64,000 bases of DNA from Chloroflexota bacterium (GTDB lineage Bacteria; Chloroflexota; Dehalococcoidia; UBA2979), in contig QWRD01000004.1 in assembly GCA_003670575.1 (NCBI GenBank), forward strand, positions 1 through 64,000, given 5' to 3'. Position 1 is the stretch's first letter; every line of letters begins with the position of its first letter. The position numbers and the translations under genes are program-made. Of the stretch, positions 16,121-50,497 are shown one piece after another. The notes under the pieces are model-generated. The model made no database searches, was not told the DNA's origin, and saw only the letters and a program-made list of their open reading frames with translations.

Positions 16121-16741
16121 CTATGCCACACCAAACGTTCTTCTAGCTTCACCAACGAGACGCGCAAGGTATTTAAGGTAAAGGTCGAGCAGTTGCGCCG
16201 CCGAAAGGCCCGTGATGTCCTTCCCCAGATGGATTAGCGGGGCATCCCGGAACGTGTACCAAACCTCACCGACCTCTCGCGGCAACTTCCAGTAGACCTT
16301 CTCAGCTGTACCGTCGCCTCGATCAACGTCCCAACCAATCCCACCAAGGTGGTCACCGATAAAGAGACTCTTCGCACCCTCAGGCGACGGCCCGATCTGA
16401 TCCGTGCTCAGGCTTCTGATGTATAGGTTCGCGCCAGCGTGCGTATCACCCTTCTTGAGGATGTCGTTACGAACATCAACACAATAGCGTAGCAGTGCGT
16501 CTTCTTTTATCTCTTGCTGCCACGGCTCATACCATGCGTCGAAGCCATGAACCCGAGATCGCAACTGCTGAAGCACGAAGGTTACGGAACGACCATGAAC
16601 GATTACGTTCCGGAAGTGCGCGGCATACAGTTCAGGATCGACTGAGAGCAACAACTCACGAAGCTCGACCTGCGCGTGTCGCAATGTCCCCTCTGTCCGT
16701 TGGACGATGTCCCCGGCGGGCGGATCTGAACGACTCGGCAT
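16121..16741 (-). CDS. HEPN-like protein of unknown function
   Basis: 206 residues, helical. Segments RNVIVHGRSVTFVLQQLRSRV and, later, FDAWYEPWQQEI followed by LLRYCVDVRNDILKKG resemble a HEPN-like group in which the second arginine-asparagine (RNxxxH) normally ends in His; here that His is replaced (RNDILKK). An R-x4-H is nevertheless present in RNVIVH. The C-terminal part (WKLPREVGEVWYTFRD, SAAQLLDLYLKYLARLV) is a separate helical and beta region. Codons and GC are less biased than neighbours, suggesting acquisition. RNase activity is not supported by the motif state. Confidence 0.45.
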   Translation of the reverse strand: MPSRSDPPAGDIVQRTEGTLRHAQVELRELLLSVDPELYAAHFRNVIVHGRSVTFVLQQLRSRVHGFDAWYEPWQQEIKEDALLRYCVDVRNDILKKGDTHAGANLYIRSLSTDQIGPSPEGAKSLFIGDHLGGIGWDVDRGDGTAEKVYWKLPREVGEVWYTFRDAPLIHLGKDITGLSAAQLLDLYLKYLARLVGEARRTFGVA

Positions 16742-16754
16742 TACGCGAACCGCC

Positions 16755-17666
16755 CTACACGGCCGCGAGCACGTCCAAACGGTGCTTCGCCATCTCCGCG
16801 TCGATCTGCGCCTGCGCAGCGGGCGAGGCCTCGATCATTGGGAGGCGGAGGCTGCCGACGCGGATGCCGGCGTGGTTCAGCGCGTACTTCACGGGGATCG
16901 GGTTGGTCTCGATGAACATCACGTTGAACAGCGGCATCAGCCGCGCCTCGATCGTGCGCGCACCGGCGAGATCGCCTCGTACGTAGGCCGCGATCATCTC
17001 GCTAATCTGCACGCCTACGAGGTGACTCGCGACGGAGACGATGCCCCACCCACCCTGGTCGAGAATGTCGAGGGTCAGCGCATCGTCGCCGGACCAGAGC
17101 CGGAAGCCGACGGGGGCGGCGTCACAGATCGCCTTCGCCTGCGGCAGGTCGCCGGCGGCCTCTTTGATCCCGACGATGTTCGGGACGTCGTTCGCCAGCC
17201 GGAGCGTGGTCTCGGCGGTCATGTTCAGCGCGGTGCGGCCGGGGATGTTGTAGAGGATGCACGGCAGCGGGGTCGCGGCCGCCAGCGTGGTGAAGTGGCG
17301 GTACAGCCCCTCCTGCGGCGGCTTGTTGTAGTACGGCACCGTGAACATCAGCCCGGACATCCCGGCGCTGACACCCTCGCGCACCATCTCCAGCGACTCG
17401 GACGTGGAGTTGGTGGAGGCGCCGCCGATGATGGTGGCCGCGGGACCGACTGCCTTGCGCACAGCGCGCCAAACCTCGACCTGCTCCTCGATGCTCAGCG
17501 TGGGCGTCTCACCGGTGGTGCCGGTGAGCACGAGGCCGTCCGAGCCGGAGGCGAGCAGCATCCTCGCCAGCACGCCAGCCTGCTCGTAGTCCACGGAGCC
17601 GTCCGCGGCGAACGGAGTCACCATCGCCGTCATCACGCGCCCGAAGTTCACCCTCGTGTCAGCCAT
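16755..17666 (-). CDS. dapA: 4-hydroxy-tetrahydrodipicolinate synthase
   Basis: The ATG at 17666 with AGGAGGTG upstream gives 303 residues. DapA condenses pyruvate with aspartate semialdehyde, the first committed step to lysine and diaminopimelate. Motifs: GTTGETPTLS, PYYNKPPQEGLYRHF (catalytic Tyr), LYNIPGRT and the Schiff-base Lys in GIKEAAGD. It lies downstream of asd, whose product is its substrate, with a 150-base gap holding a C-rich palindrome; both probably share the asd promoter. Confidence 0.96.
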   Translation of the reverse strand: MADTRVNFGRVMTAMVTPFAADGSVDYEQAGVLARMLLASGSDGLVLTGTTGETPTLSIEEQVEVWRAVRKAVGPAATIIGGASTNSTSESLEMVREGVSAGMSGLMFTVPYYNKPPQEGLYRHFTTLAAATPLPCILYNIPGRTALNMTAETTLRLANDVPNIVGIKEAAGDLPQAKAICDAAPVGFRLWSGDDALTLDILDQGGWGIVSVASHLVGVQISEMIAAYVRGDLAGARTIEARLMPLFNVMFIETNPIPVKYALNHAGIRVGSLRLPMIEASPAAQAQIDAEMAKHRLDVLAAV

Positions 17667-17751
17667 CGCACACCTCCTGCGGCCTCGACGCTCCGAGGCT
17701 GGATGCAAATCGTAGCGCGCGGGCGCAAGACCCGACCTCGGAACCCAGGCC

Positions 17752-17792
17752 ACCCTCACCCCCGGCCCCTCTCCCCGAGGGCGAGGGGAGAC
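17752..17792. repeat. C-rich palindromic dispersed repeat, copy 1
   Basis: The dapA-asd gap holds CCCTCACCCCCGGCCCCTC followed by CTCCCC and the inverted GAGGGGAG. The same motif pair recurs at 19004-19114 and 54822-54920, always between genes. It is a REP-like intergenic element and might also act as a transcription attenuator or terminator. Confidence 0.55.
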
Positions 17793-17816
17793 GGAGCACG
17801 GTCGCGGCCCTGCCGC

Positions 17817-18839
17817 CTAGAGCCGACCGCGCTTGATCAGCTCTTCGGCGATCTGGATGGCGTTGGTCGCCGCGCCCTTGCGCAGGTTGTCCGTCGCGAC
17901 CCAGAACGCGAGGCCGAACTCCACCGACGGGTCGAGGCGCAGTCGACCGACGAATGCCCGGTCGTCGCCCTCCGAGTTGAGCGGCGTGGGGTAGATCGAC
18001 TTCGACGGCTCGTCCATGACTACGACACCCGGCTGCTTCGAGAGCGCCTCGCGGATGTCGTTCAACGCAGCCGCCGAGCTGAACTCAACCTGCACCGCCT
18101 CGGCGTGGCCGATCACGGTGGGGACGCGCACGCAGGTCGCGGAGAACGGCAGCTCCGGCAGGTGCAGGATCTTGCGCGTCTCGTTCATCATCTTGGCTTC
18201 CTCGGCGGTGTAGCCGTCCTCACCGAAGACATCGACCTGCGGGATCACGTTCATCGCGATCTGGTGCGGATACACGGACGGCGCCGGAATCGGCTCGCCA
18301 CGCCCGTAGGCGCGCAACTGCGAGCGCAACTCCTCGACGGCGGCAGCGCCGGTGCCAGAGGTCGCTTGGTACGTCGCGACGGTGACGCGCTTCAGCGGCG
18401 CGACCTGCCGCATCGCGTGCAGCGCCATCGCGAGGGGAGTGGTGGTGCAGTTGGGGATCGAGATGATCCCTTCCTCCCAGGCCAGGTCGTCCGCGTTCAC
18501 CTCGGGGATGACCAGCGGGACGTTGGCCTGCATGCGGAACGCGGAACCGTCGTCGATCATAATCGCGCCCTGGGAGGTGATGAACGGCGCCCACTCACGC
18601 GAGGCCGCCGAGGTCGCAGAGCAGAACACGAGGTCCGCGCCGCGCAGATTCTCCTCGTTCGTCTCCTCAACGGTGATCGATTCGCCGCCGTAGTGCAGTT
18701 GCTTGCCGGCAGAGCGCGCAGTGGCGAGCAGCCGCAGCCGCGAGAGCGGGAAGCGGCGCTCCGCGGCGACGCGCAGGAACACGTCTCCCACGGCGCCCGT
18801 GGCACCGATGACGGCTACGTTCGGCTGTGACTTTGGCAT
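17817..18839 (-). CDS. asd: Aspartate-semialdehyde dehydrogenase
   Basis: 340 residues. It reduces aspartyl phosphate to aspartate semialdehyde, the branch point to lysine, threonine and methionine. NADP-binding VIGATGAVGDVFL opens the protein; the catalytic Cys is in SIPNCTTTPL, and the active-site His lies in VIGHAEAV. GGAGAGGGG precedes the ATG. The gene is preceded by its own promoter, a Thr-rich minigene and a strong hairpin (18859-18998), suggesting amino-acid-responsive control. Confidence 0.97.
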   Translation of the reverse strand: MPKSQPNVAVIGATGAVGDVFLRVAAERRFPLSRLRLLATARSAGKQLHYGGESITVEETNEENLRGADLVFCSATSAASREWAPFITSQGAIMIDDGSAFRMQANVPLVIPEVNADDLAWEEGIISIPNCTTTPLAMALHAMRQVAPLKRVTVATYQATSGTGAAAVEELRSQLRAYGRGEPIPAPSVYPHQIAMNVIPQVDVFGEDGYTAEEAKMMNETRKILHLPELPFSATCVRVPTVIGHAEAVQVEFSSAAALNDIREALSKQPGVVVMDEPSKSIYPTPLNSEGDDRAFVGRLRLDPSVEFGLAFWVATDNLRKGAATNAIQIAEELIKRGRL

Positions 18840-18858
18840 GGCATGCCCCTCTCCGATG

Positions 18859-18898
18859 GCCCCTGCTGTTCGAGGGCAGGGACCCTCGTCGCAGGGGC
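18859..18898 (-). promoter_or_regulatory. Candidate attenuator hairpin ahead of asd
   Basis: On the minus strand GCCCCTGC pairs perfectly with GCAGGGGC, and an inner CGAGGG pairs with CCCTCG around a 6-base loop. It begins 5 bases after the minigene stop and ends 3 bases before the asd ribosome-binding site. There is no U-tract, so it may act by blocking translation or with Rho rather than as a classic terminator. Confidence 0.5.
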
Positions 18899-18903
18899 GC
18901 GTG

Positions 18904-18960
18904 TTAGCGCTGCTTCTTGGTGACCTTGCTGGTCGTGGTAGTGACCGGGGTGCATCGCAT
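18904..18960 (-). CDS. Thr-rich leader peptide, putative
   Basis: An 18-codon minigene starts with ATG at 18960, encodes MRCTPVTTTTSKVTKKQR and stops with TAA. Six of 18 residues are Thr, four consecutive; three are Lys. The predicted promoter (-10 at 18971-18976) places transcription start near 18963, so the ATG would be almost at the 5' end of the message, a leaderless arrangement. An in-frame ATG four codons upstream overlaps the -10. Position, composition and the following hairpin resemble thrL-type attenuation. No antiterminator pairing was found by eye, so the mechanism remains open. Confidence 0.45.
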   Translation of the reverse strand: MRCTPVTTTTSKVTKKQR

Positions 18961-18970
18961 CGTGCCGCTC

Positions 18971-18998
18971 ATGATACACGGCGCGGCCGGTGCGCCAA
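18971..18998 (-). promoter_or_regulatory. Predicted promoter of the asd leader and asd
   Basis: On the minus strand TTGGCG and TATCAT (5 of 6 matches to TATAAT) are separated by 16 bases. The start site would lie near 18963, just before the leader ATG at 18960. Confidence 0.6.
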
Positions 18999-19003
18999 GG
19001 GGA

Positions 19004-19114
19004 GCCCTCACCCCTGCCCCTCTCCCAGTTCCTGGGCGAGGGGTTCTGAACCCGACACTGCGCGTCTTACTCCCCTCGCCCCACTTGGCGGGGAGAGGGG
19101 TTGGGGGTGAGGGC
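19004..19114. repeat. C-rich palindromic dispersed repeat, copy 2 (inverted pair)
   Basis: GCCCTCACCCCTGCCCCTC at the left end reappears inverted as GAGAGGGGTTGGGGGTGAG at the right end, around a 60-base centre that itself contains CTGGGCGAGGGG and CCCCTCGCCCC. The element would fold into a long hairpin and lies between the asd promoter and the preceding hypothetical gene. Confidence 0.6.
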
Positions 19115-19124
19115 CTCCCCCCTC

Positions 19125-19757
19125 CTACCCCTCGATGAGCTGCGCCTGCGCGAGCGAGCGATCCCACGGGCTGAACAGCAGCGTGAATGGCGACTCCAGC
19201 ACCAGCGCCGCGATGCTGAGGTCGCGACGCCCGAGTGCGACGTACTCGCCGAGCACGCCGGCCAGCGCGGGCCGCGCCAACACATCTTTCACGGCGTCCA
19301 CGGGCCCACACTCGGTCAGCAGGCGGCGCAGGTGCACCGGGTCGTACGACAGCTCGCGGGCCGCGGTGTCGTAGATCGCGAGCAGCCGCACACGCAGCGC
19401 CGCAGCGATCGCGGCCGGGTCAACCTCGACAGGCTCGATGGGTTCCGGGGGCTTGAGGCCAAGCCGCTGCCGCGCGACCGCCAATTCCTCAGCGTCGAAC
19501 AGCGCGTCGAACGGGGGCTGGAGCACGAGATACTCGACGGTGTACGCCTCGCACTGCGAGTCCACGAGCTCGCGGAACGTCAGCGACTCCACCGGGTTGG
19601 CGAGCGTGTAGTGCGCCAGCGGCAGTCCATCCTCGGGGCCGAGCGCCGGGAGGTGACGCGCCTGCGGCAGGGGGGCGAACTGCCTCGCGTTCGCGAAGGT
19701 CTCGGCGATCCGCCGGTTGAAGCGCGCCGCCAAGTCCGGATCGTCGACGTTCGTCAC
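19125..19757 (-). CDS. Conserved hypothetical protein downstream of dapB
   Basis: GTG start placed 5 bases after the dapB stop; 210 residues. The protein is soluble and mostly helical, with no recognised catalytic motif. Visible features: an opening VTNVDDPDLAARFNRR, a central SLTFRELVDSQCEAYTVEYL and FDALFDAEELAVARQRLGL, a Pro/Glu-rich hinge (KPPEPIEPVEV) and a C-terminal half with LSYDPVHLRRLL and SPFTLLFSPWD. Tight spacing indicates co-transcription with dapB and pnp. Function unknown. Confidence 0.6.
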   Translation of the reverse strand: MTNVDDPDLAARFNRRIAETFANARQFAPLPQARHLPALGPEDGLPLAHYTLANPVESLTFRELVDSQCEAYTVEYLVLQPPFDALFDAEELAVARQRLGLKPPEPIEPVEVDPAAIAAALRVRLLAIYDTAARELSYDPVHLRRLLTECGPVDAVKDVLARPALAGVLGEYVALGRRDLSIAALVLESPFTLLFSPWDRSLAQAQLIEG

Positions 19758-46742: not shown

Positions 46743-46767
46743 CGATGCACGCACGGTCATCCGTGTG

Positions 46768-46906
46768 GTTCATCGAGAGTGGTGGAGGGCGTCGGCCCTG
46801 TGAAACCACGGCAACCGGGTCACCCTCGCCAGGGTGGGTACGGTGCCAAGTCCGCCCCGCTGCAGGAGAGCTCGTGGTACACGGGTCTGCATTGGGAGAG
46901 ATGAAC
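46768..46906 (+). promoter_or_regulatory. SAM-I (S-box) riboswitch
   Basis: P1 is formed by GTTCATC (46768-46774) and GATGAAC (46900-46906). Between them are the class hallmarks CGAGAGTGGTGGAGGGC, GGCCCTGTGAAACC, CGGCAACC, then a CACCCTCGCCAGGGTG hairpin, GGTGCCAAGTCC and GGGAGAGATGA. It senses S-adenosylmethionine and turns off methionine-related genes. The downstream operon is the threonine-synthase-like gene, the NIL protein and a carrier. Confidence 0.95.
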
Positions 46907-47011
46907 GGGAAGGCGACCTCATGACAGACAGTCCTCTCCGGATATCTCCTCGCGGCTGGCTCCAACTCCCTCGCACTGGCTGTGGCGGCATGGGCCGCAT
47001 GGTGATGCGTC

Positions 47012-47103: not shown

Positions 47104-48363
47104 ATGTCGTTTGAACGTGCCCTGCGCTGCAGGGAATGTGGCCGCGAGTACGAGCTCAAGCCGATCTTCTCCTGTGAGTTCTGCTTCGGCCCGCTGGAAG
47201 TCGCGTACGACTACGACGGGATCCGCGAGGCGATCTCGACGGACTCGATCGAGCGCGGGCCTGCCTCGCTGTGGCGGTACGCGCCGCTGCTGCCGGTTGA
47301 TCCGCAGTACAAGGTGGACATCGGCACCGGCTTCACGCCGCTGATCCGTGCCGACCGACTGGCGAAGCGCCTCGGCCTCGACACGCTGTGGTTGAAGAAC
47401 GACACCACGAATCCCACGTGGTCGTTCAAGGACCGCGTGGTGAGCATGGCGATCGCGCGTGCGCGCCAGTTCGGGTTCACCGCGATGGCGTGCGCCAGCA
47501 CCGGCAACCTCGCGAACTCGGTGTCTGCGCACTCGGCGGCGGCGGGCATGGAAGCGTTTGTGTTCATCCCGAACGACCTGGAGATCGGCAAGGTCATCGG
47601 CAGCGCGATCTACGCGCCCACGCTGGTGATGGTCGAAGGCAATTACGACGACGTGAACCGGCTCTGTACGGAGCTGGCGGGCTCCCGTCCCTGGGCGTTC
47701 GTGAACATCAACGTGCGGCCGTTCTACGCGGAGGGCTCCCGCACGCTCTCCTTCGAGGTGGCGGAGCAGCTCGGCTGGCGCACACCGGCACATTGCGTCG
47801 CGCCGATGGCTTCCGGCTCGCTGTTCACCAAGATCTGGAAGGGGTTCCAGGAGCTGCACAAGGTGGGGCTGCTGGCGGACGAGCCGCGGATCCGGATGTC
47901 CGGGGCGCAGGCTGCGGGCTGCTCGCCGATCTCCACGGCGTTTGCACAGGGGACACTGAACTTCGTGCCGCAGAAGCCGAACACCATCGCGCGCTCGCTC
48001 GCGATCGGGAACCCGGCGGACGGGTACTACGCGCTGAAGGTGATGGAAGAGACGGGCGGCGGTGCCGAGATGGCAACCGACGAGGAGATCGTCGAGGGCA
48101 TCAAGCTGCTGGCGGAGACGGAGGGCATCTTCGCCGAGACCGCTGGCGGCGTGACGATCGCCTGTCTGCAGAAGCTGGTCGCGAGCGGCGCGATTCGTCG
48201 CGACGAGGAGACCGTGGCGTTCATCACGGGCGGCGGGCTCAAGACGATCGAGGCTGTGGAAGGCAAACTGATTGAGCCGGTACGCGTCCCCGCCAATGCG
48301 GAGGCGTTCGATGCCGCGCTTGCCGCTCGGCAGGCGCGGCTCGTCGGCGTAGGAGGTGCCTAG
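47104..48363 (+). CDS. Threonine-synthase-like PLP enzyme, candidate carrier-dependent homocysteine synthase
   Basis: 419 residues. An N-terminal zinc ribbon (Cys9, 12, 24, 27: CRECG and CEFCFGPL) precedes a fold-type II PLP domain with the Schiff-base Lys109 in NPTWSFKDRV, ACASTGNLANSVSAHSAAAG (phosphate-binding loop) and ASGSLFTKIWKGF. The sequence family is called threonine synthase, which acts on O-phosphohomoserine. Control by a SAM-I riboswitch and linkage to NIL and MoaD/CysO-type genes argue that here the same substrate is used for homocysteine with carrier-bound sulfur. That reassignment is an inference; threonine synthesis remains possible. Confidence 0.85.
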   Translation: MSFERALRCRECGREYELKPIFSCEFCFGPLEVAYDYDGIREAISTDSIERGPASLWRYAPLLPVDPQYKVDIGTGFTPLIRADRLAKRLGLDTLWLKNDTTNPTWSFKDRVVSMAIARARQFGFTAMACASTGNLANSVSAHSAAAGMEAFVFIPNDLEIGKVIGSAIYAPTLVMVEGNYDDVNRLCTELAGSRPWAFVNINVRPFYAEGSRTLSFEVAEQLGWRTPAHCVAPMASGSLFTKIWKGFQELHKVGLLADEPRIRMSGAQAAGCSPISTAFAQGTLNFVPQKPNTIARSLAIGNPADGYYALKVMEETGGGAEMATDEEIVEGIKLLAETEGIFAETAGGVTIACLQKLVASGAIRRDEETVAFITGGGLKTIEAVEGKLIEPVRVPANAEAFDAALAARQARLVGVGGA

Positions 48364-49558: not shown

Positions 49559-50497
49559 ATGACGACGGAACGCCGGTTTGCCTCGCAGCCGCTGATCGCG
49601 GACTCGGTGCTCGACCTGATCGGGGCGACGCCGCTTGTCCGGCTGCATCGCGTGGTGCCGGAAGGCGCGGCCGAGGTGCTGGGCAAGCTGGAAGCGCGCA
49701 ATCCCGGCGGCTCCGTCAAGGATCGCATTGCCATCGCGATGGTCGAGGCTGCGGAGCGGGATGGGCGGCTGGCACCTGGCGCGACGATTGTGGAGCCGAC
49801 CTCCGGGAACACCGGCATCGGTCTGGCAATGGTCTGCGCGCGCAAGGGCTACTCGCTGGTGCTGACCATGCCGGAGGACATGAGCGTAGAGCGCCGTCGC
49901 TTACTGGAGCGATTCGGCGCGCAGTTGATCCTCACCCCGACGATCGAGGGGATGACCGGTGCGGTGTTTGCCGCGCAGGAGCTCGCCAAGCGGCGCGGCT
50001 ACTTCATGCCCCAGCAGTTCGACAACCCGGTGAACCCGGAGATCCACCGCAGCACCACCGGCCCGGAAATCCTGGAGGCCACCGAGGGCCGTCTAGATGC
50101 CTTCGTGGCTGGAGTGGGCACTGGCGGTACGATTACGGGCGTCGGCGAGGTGCTGCGGGCCGCGGACGCAGCGATCCGCATCGTTGCGGTGGAACCGGCG
50201 CGGGCGCCCGTGCTGCAAGGCGGGCGCGCAGGTATCCACGGTATTCAGGGCATCGGCGCCTCGTTTGTGCCGGGTGTCTTGAACCGCGAGGTCTACAACG
50301 AGATCATGAGCGTCCGCGATGAGGACGCCTTTGCGATGACGAAGCGGCTGGCGCGGGAAGAGGGGCTGCTGGTTGGCATCTCCGCCGGCGCCAACGTCTG
50401 GGCTGCAGTGCAGGTCGCGACGACCCTTGGGCCCGGCAAGCGAGTGGTGACCATGCTGTGTGATACCGGCGAGCGCTACCTAAGCGTGACGCTGTAA
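49559..50497 (+). CDS. cysK: Cysteine synthase (O-acetylserine sulfhydrylase type)
   Basis: 312 residues, PLP fold-type II. Schiff-base Lys54 in NPGGSVKDRIAIAM; TSGNTGIGLA; QFDNPVNPEIHRSTTGPEI; GVGTGGTITG; HGIQGIGASFVPGVL and GISAGAN. The HGIQGIG segment is characteristic of acetylserine enzymes, in contrast to the second paralogue at 52014. First enzyme gene after the Rrf2 regulator. Confidence 0.93.
   Translation: MTTERRFASQPLIADSVLDLIGATPLVRLHRVVPEGAAEVLGKLEARNPGGSVKDRIAIAMVEAAERDGRLAPGATIVEPTSGNTGIGLAMVCARKGYSLVLTMPEDMSVERRRLLERFGAQLILTPTIEGMTGAVFAAQELAKRRGYFMPQQFDNPVNPEIHRSTTGPEILEATEGRLDAFVAGVGTGGTITGVGEVLRAADAAIRIVAVEPARAPVLQGGRAGIHGIQGIGASFVPGVLNREVYNEIMSVRDEDAFAMTKRLAREEGLLVGISAGANVWAAVQVATTLGPGKRVVTMLCDTGERYLSVTL

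Follow-up and report, generated by a model that had tools for sequence, protein, structure and literature searches.

Enteric bacteria provide the best-known cases of amino-acid attenuation, which works there through transcription termination. In the E. coli thr operon, the thrL leader is rich in Thr codons, and the position of the ribosome chooses between two exclusive RNA folds, resulting in transcription attenuation. In the LEU element, found before leuA in Actinobacteria, the run of Leu codons is itself the pairing partner of the Shine-Dalgarno box; a pseudoknot has also been proposed (PMC1262725). The upstream regions of mycobacterial cys genes have no conserved terminator hairpins (PMC1262725), and leaderless polycysteine short ORFs without an intrinsic terminator precede mycobacterial biosynthetic genes (Canestrari et al. 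2020, doi 10.1111/mmi.14498, as cited in PMC9031893). A Streptomyces lividans study describes leaderless leaders with a hairpin, some of which lack a U-tract; these include thrL before thrS, with two Thr codons, as well as leuL1 and trpL2 (PMC8079986).

The window considered here, a 64-kb (64,000-nucleotide) stretch of a Chloroflexota genome, contains an element ahead of asd that is closer to the actinobacterial LEU element and to the leaderless leaders than to thrL. Its candidate target, asd, is needed for the synthesis of threonine, lysine, and methionine. The element shares with thrL a Thr-rich leader peptide ahead of an aspartate-family gene and two exclusive predicted folds. In contrast to thrL, it has no terminator or U-tract, pairs Thr with Lys rather than Ile as the second amino acid, lies on a probably near-leaderless message that targets asd, has an OFF fold predicted to hide the ribosome-binding site, and is predicted to be ON when the leader is not translated. 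Unlike the LEU element, it has no Leu run, its pairing segment lies past the leader stop, and two duplicated segments (A and C) compete for a third (A'). Runs of the codons presumably sensed and the lack of an intrinsic terminator are shared with the mycobacterial Cys ORFs, as is, by prediction, a (near-)leaderless start, whereas the Thr/Lys composition and the predicted conserved two-state RNA set the asd leader apart. Its predicted near-leaderless short ORF and its hairpin likewise connect it to the Streptomyces lividans leaders, one of which is a Thr leader and some of which also lack a U-tract; for these, the accessible part of the study describes no alternative fold that hides a ribosome-binding site (PMC8079986). 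Sinorhizobium trpL, another leaderless leader, is also comparable (PMC7298713). Among the papers searched, there was no account linking asd with leader-peptide attenuation and no description of Thr/Lys pairing on asd or of the A/C/A' competition. The asd element probably acts as a feedback switch; the general type is known, but this version is unusual in having no terminator.

Table 1. Features of the asd leader and its flanking genes, in window coordinates.
Feature	Coordinates	Strand	Remarks
Promoter-like site TTGGCG-16-TATCAT	18971..18998	minus	single site in 18700-19200; -35-like TTGGCG at 18998-18993, TATCAT at 18976-18971, 16-nt spacer
Leader ORF MRCTPVTTTTSKVTKKQR plus stop	18904..18960	minus	ATG at 18960, TAA at 18906-18904; 6 Thr and 3 Lys codons of 18
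Two-part hairpin	18898-18859	minus	between leader stop and asd ribosome-binding site
Segment A GCCCCTGC	18891..18898	minus	starts 5 nt past leader stop; predicted partner A' or asd ribosome-binding region
Segment B CGAGGG	18883..18888	minus	inner stem of predicted ON hairpin
Segment C GGTCCCTGC	18876..18884	minus	predicted alternative partner for A'
Segment B' CCCTCG	18871..18876	minus	inner stem of predicted ON hairpin
Segment A' GCAGGGGCC	18858..18866	minus	predicted partner A (ON) or C (OFF)
asd ribosome-binding region GGAGAGGGGC	18845..18854	minus	AGGGGC pairs with A in predicted OFF fold; GGAGAGGGG of the site at 18854-18846
asd (aspartate-semialdehyde dehydrogenase)	17817..18839	minus	candidate regulated gene; ATG at 18839; TIGR01296 386.6 bits (cut-off 324.2), NF011456
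dapA	16755..17759	minus	downstream of asd; own -10-like site and ribosome-binding site

The sequence-only reading had described a promoter, an 18-codon Thr-rich peptide with four Thr codons in a row followed by Thr, Lys, and a stop, and a two-part hairpin ahead of the asd ribosome-binding site, and all three are found on the minus strand (Table 1). The promoter-like site is unique within 500 bases, with 0.0 expected in shuffles. The leader ATG lies 10 nt past the -10 box and opens the codon series ATG CGA TGC ACC CCG GTC ACT ACC ACG ACC AGC AAG GTC ACC AAG AAG CAG CGC TAA. The window has 375 short ATG frames (14-40 aa), of which MRCTPVTTTTSKVTKKQR alone reaches 50% Thr plus Lys. An in-frame upstream ATG at 18972 (MSGTMRC...) was rejected as the leader start because it overlaps the -10 box. 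The distance from the -10-like box (TATCAT/TATCCT/TATCCT/TATGAT across four genomes) to the leader ATG is 9-10 nt in every copy of the element, predicting a 5' UTR of about 0-4 nt and making a leaderless message plausible but unproven.

Among 44 family genomes searched, asd is present in 40, and the upstream regions of all 40 were inspected. Besides the window genome, the element precedes asd in three of the 43 other family genomes, two from the window's genus (G007 and G008) and one from another genus (G004). The four copies share the order of promoter, Thr/Lys peptide, stop, hairpin, and ribosome-binding site, and their last 95 nt are 72-84% identical, compared with 57-63% upstream of the promoter. 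The peptides are MRCTPVTTTTSKVTKKQR in the window genome, MTDFLTTTTKTTKKQR in G007, MTNQALTTKTSKVTKKQR in G008, and MQQTTGHELIANAALRAPQGGTPALVTTTTKKQS in G004; that of one relative reads MQQ...LVTTTTKKQS, the other two being MTNQALTTKTSKVTKKQR and MTDFLTTTTKTTKKQR. Conservation of codons rather than nucleotides, suggested as a check by the sequence-only reading, is what the comparison reveals: the Thr and Lys residues are kept across the four genomes, and the codons of the Thr runs vary synonymously (ACT ACC ACG ACC; ACG ACC ACC ACC; ACC ACG .. ACC; ACG ACT ACT ACG). That reading had also held that relatives without the Thr run and hairpin would count against it; the nearest relatives keep both, but most of the family lacks them.

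No Thr/Lys leader peptide is seen ahead of asd in the other family genomes with the gene, on inspection of the 40 upstream regions, and the same family genomes have no convincing similar leaders before hom, lysC, trpE, thrC, or hisG. A covariance model (R1) of the stop-hairpin region, run against 393 class genomes as well as the 44 of the family, scores strongly only on the four known copies. The best weak match, in G034 (E = 6e-4), was the one weak match inspected; it lies inside a coding gene and was dismissed as chance. Since the 393 class genomes hold no further strong copy, the element appears local to two genera and is probably recent in origin.

The peptide could also be a functional small protein, with the RNA fold acting separately as a riboswitch or protein-binding element. 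The conserved C-terminal KKQR/KKQS would suit such a role, and leader peptides can act in trans, as does peTrpL (PMC7298713). Both peptide length (16-34 aa) and the sequence outside Thr and Lys vary, however, and a search for Rfam families (T-box, lysine riboswitch, Thr leader, and others) found none at threshold in the leader stretch, the best chance match having E = 0.58, making this explanation highly improbable. The reading of the sequence as a leader-peptide attenuator for Thr (and Lys) with a probably near-leaderless message is well supported, because peptide composition, stop position, and RNA fold are kept in four genomes of two genera, with synonymous Thr codons, and because ilvB in the same family has an analogous Leu/Val leader.

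Downstream of the leader, the TAA is followed by CACGCGCCCCTGC..., then GGAGAGGGG, then the asd ATG. The post-stop RNA is arranged as A-B-C-B'-A', followed by the ribosome-binding site. In the predicted ON fold, A pairs with A' around a B:B' stem, leaving the ribosome-binding site free. In the predicted OFF fold, A' is taken by C, and the partner of A is the ribosome-binding site (A:SD), which is hidden. The two folds are mutually exclusive because A and A' are common to both. The hairpin originally proposed stands as a structure, but that proposal missed the two alternative partners of its 5' arm, namely the 3' arm and the ribosome-binding site.

Both folds are possible in all four genomes and lie within about 4 kcal/mol of each other, with fold-pair energies of -37.4/-37.4, -35.5/-32.9, -37.6/-38.5, and -31.2/-35.0 kcal/mol; G004 disfavors the OFF fold by 2.6 kcal/mol relative to the ON fold. 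The 151-nt leader has a folding z score of -2.31, with 3 of 200 shuffles equally stable. Modeling of the growing transcript predicts that the ON fold forms first and the OFF fold once the ribosome-binding site is transcribed; in L010, adding the asd start returns the ON fold to the lowest energy. When 12 nt counted from the stop codon are masked, three of the four sequences form C:A', G004 being the exception. Models with a ribosome at the stop leave the asd ribosome-binding site only partly open, or closed, suggesting that the timing of ribosome release matters.

Covariation was assessed in the four genomes, three of which come from one genus. The ON fold (A:A' plus B:B') has 100% of cells paired, with compensatory pairs in both helices. 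The OFF fold (A:SD plus C:A') has 92% of cells paired and five pairs with changes on both sides, in an alignment that was hand-padded to match this fold, which biases the pair counts in its favor. Its covariation score is matched by none of 500 shuffles, slid controls are 41-56% paired, and RNAalifold chooses the OFF fold unaided on the same hand-padded alignment. The A:SD helix alone includes one C-G/U-A/A-U pair and one G-C/C-G pair. L012 carries a C-to-U change in A with matching changes in both A' and the ribosome-binding region, and the L010 A:SD helix reads ACACCC:GGGUGU, in place of GCCCC:GGGGC or similar in the other sequences. Drawn from four sequences and a padded alignment, this evidence for a two-state RNA is good but not overwhelming.

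GC-rich sequence readily forms single helices, and A:SD-type pairing alone arises in 17-46% of shuffles, as might be expected if the element were only a GC-rich intergenic stretch with an incidental short ORF and hairpin. The full three-way wiring, on the other hand, is present in 4/4 leaders and arises in just 0.3-2.3% of the shuffles of each sequence, in 3.2% of stretches drawn at random from the window, and in one of 36 other asd upstream regions. Together with conservation across four genomes, including synonymous codon changes and compensatory base changes, the comparative data strongly disfavor a chance origin, which is exceedingly improbable.

As the sequence-only reading noted, no U-tract follows the hairpin; there is no intrinsic terminator (hairpin plus U-tract) between leader and asd, nor any terminator-like site on the minus strand. 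This absence disfavors plain transcription attenuation, although Rho could act secondarily. A mechanism in which alternative hairpins decide premature termination, either without a U-tract or through Rho on untranslated RNA, and in which the ribosome-binding site is not directly hidden, would be in keeping with the strong, GC-rich C:A' hairpin. It also has parallels in the near-leaderless Streptomyces lividans leaders with hairpins and no U-tract, annotated as attenuators (PMC8079986), and in the terminator-free mycobacterial cys leaders (PMC1262725). Nevertheless, the asd ribosome-binding site is a second partner of A in each of the four genomes, with compensatory changes that termination alone does not need, and such a mechanism is unlikely. 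Sequestration of the asd ribosome-binding site in the predicted OFF fold makes control of translation initiation likelier than transcription termination, and the asd leader is rather likely to be a ribosome-mediated attenuator acting mainly at this step. The thrL-like attenuation first suggested for this locus is well supported as far as a leader-peptide attenuator goes, given the conserved peptide and fold, while the analogy with thrL itself is corrected, as the terminator is absent and the hairpin forms half of a switch.

The asd leader has two features of the attenuator class, namely a leader ORF rich in end-product codons and, by prediction and covariation, mutually exclusive folds between which ribosome position could select. 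Prediction and covariation also assign to it the hallmark of translational attenuators, an OFF fold that hides and an ON fold that frees the ribosome-binding site, with G004 favoring ON. The ribosome footprint usually extends 12-14 nt ahead of the A site, and in every copy of the element the leader stop lies a few nucleotides upstream of segment A. On this geometry, a ribosome at the stop would cover A and one at any Thr or Lys codon would not. Starvation would thus favor A:A' (ON), and plenty would favor C:A' and then A:SD (OFF). Transcription would start 0-4 nt before the leader ATG, with ribosomes loading at the 5' end. When charged Thr- or Lys-tRNA is scarce, a ribosome would stall upstream of the leader stop, and even when it pauses on the final Lys codon, its leading edge should fall short of segment A. 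The emerging RNA could then form B:B' followed by A:A', leaving the ribosome-binding site open and asd ON. With ample supplies of both amino acids, the ribosome would reach the stop, its footprint lying over A as C and A' emerge; C would pair with A', and the freed A would then pair with the asd ribosome-binding site, turning asd OFF, possibly with later Rho-dependent loss of the untranslated message. We infer Thr and Lys as the sensed amino acids, and likewise the direction of the response.

Alternatively, the short ORF could boost asd translation by coupling or reinitiation, with a hairpin that merely bridges or protects and with no amino-acid sensing. The hairpin would draw the stop codon near the asd start, and leader genes may raise downstream translation, the topic of PMC4833913. 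This account is improbable, as it leaves the conserved Thr/Lys residues with varied codons and the conserved competing folds unexplained. If the default without leader translation is ON, mutation of the leader start codon would be expected to cause over-expression of asd, opposite to superattenuation in trp and thr. The element would also illustrate attenuation without an intrinsic terminator in high-GC lineages, with two branch end products read at a common step, and the wiring of A, C, A', and the ribosome-binding site would provide a compact, testable model with specific mutational predictions.

Leaders upstream of ilvB occur in six family genomes of at least four genera (leaders L098, L095, L094, L096, L097, and L093; genomes G000, G008, G007, G004, G009, and G005). 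They have a conserved TTGACG promoter, with an ATG about 9-10 nt past an (A/G)ATA(C/A)T box. The near-leaderless Leu/Val/Ile peptides end in LVLVLT, LLVLS, or LLVLI before the stop, at which a hairpin begins, and several have a second hairpin followed by GTTT. These leaders are candidate branched-chain amino-acid attenuators. It is quite possible, though tentative, that all parts of the proposal hold jointly: a dual Thr/Lys sensor in which duplicated A and C compete for A', A sequesters the ribosome-binding site, asd is ON by default when the leader goes untranslated, and the ilvB leaders belong to the same general family strategy. If so, terminator-poor, near-leaderless attenuation would be a general strategy of this bacterial family.

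The asd gene is flanked by an unknown ORF/dapB on one side and dapA on the other. In all four genomes, dapA has a -10-like box (TACGAT/TACCAT/TATTCT) and a ribosome-binding site of its own (17665-17816 in the window; L010-L012), and asd and dapA may be separately controlled, each with its own signals. The apparent dapA promoter in each genome points to asd as the main target, with leader control perhaps confined to asd and dapA only partly under it. The ORFs at 19125-19757 (minus strand, beside dapB/asd) and 16121-16741 (minus strand, beside dapA) have no Pfam or NCBIfam match; for the former, G007 and G008 have a conserved counterpart ahead of asd that is 43-45% identical. At 18999-19119, an inverted repeat of the CCCTCACCCCTGCCCCTCTCCC type separates the upstream ORF from the asd promoter; the genome holds more than 20 similar sites, and similar sequence occurs between asd and dapA.

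Elsewhere in the window, a SAM riboswitch (RF00162, 63.1 bits) is found at 46767-46907 on the plus strand. A threonine-synthase-like gene (47104-48363), which is a second thrC of the genome, follows it after about 200 bases, and a cysteine-synthase-like ORF lies at 49559. The arrangement suggests SAM control of the threonine-synthase paralogue downstream of the riboswitch.
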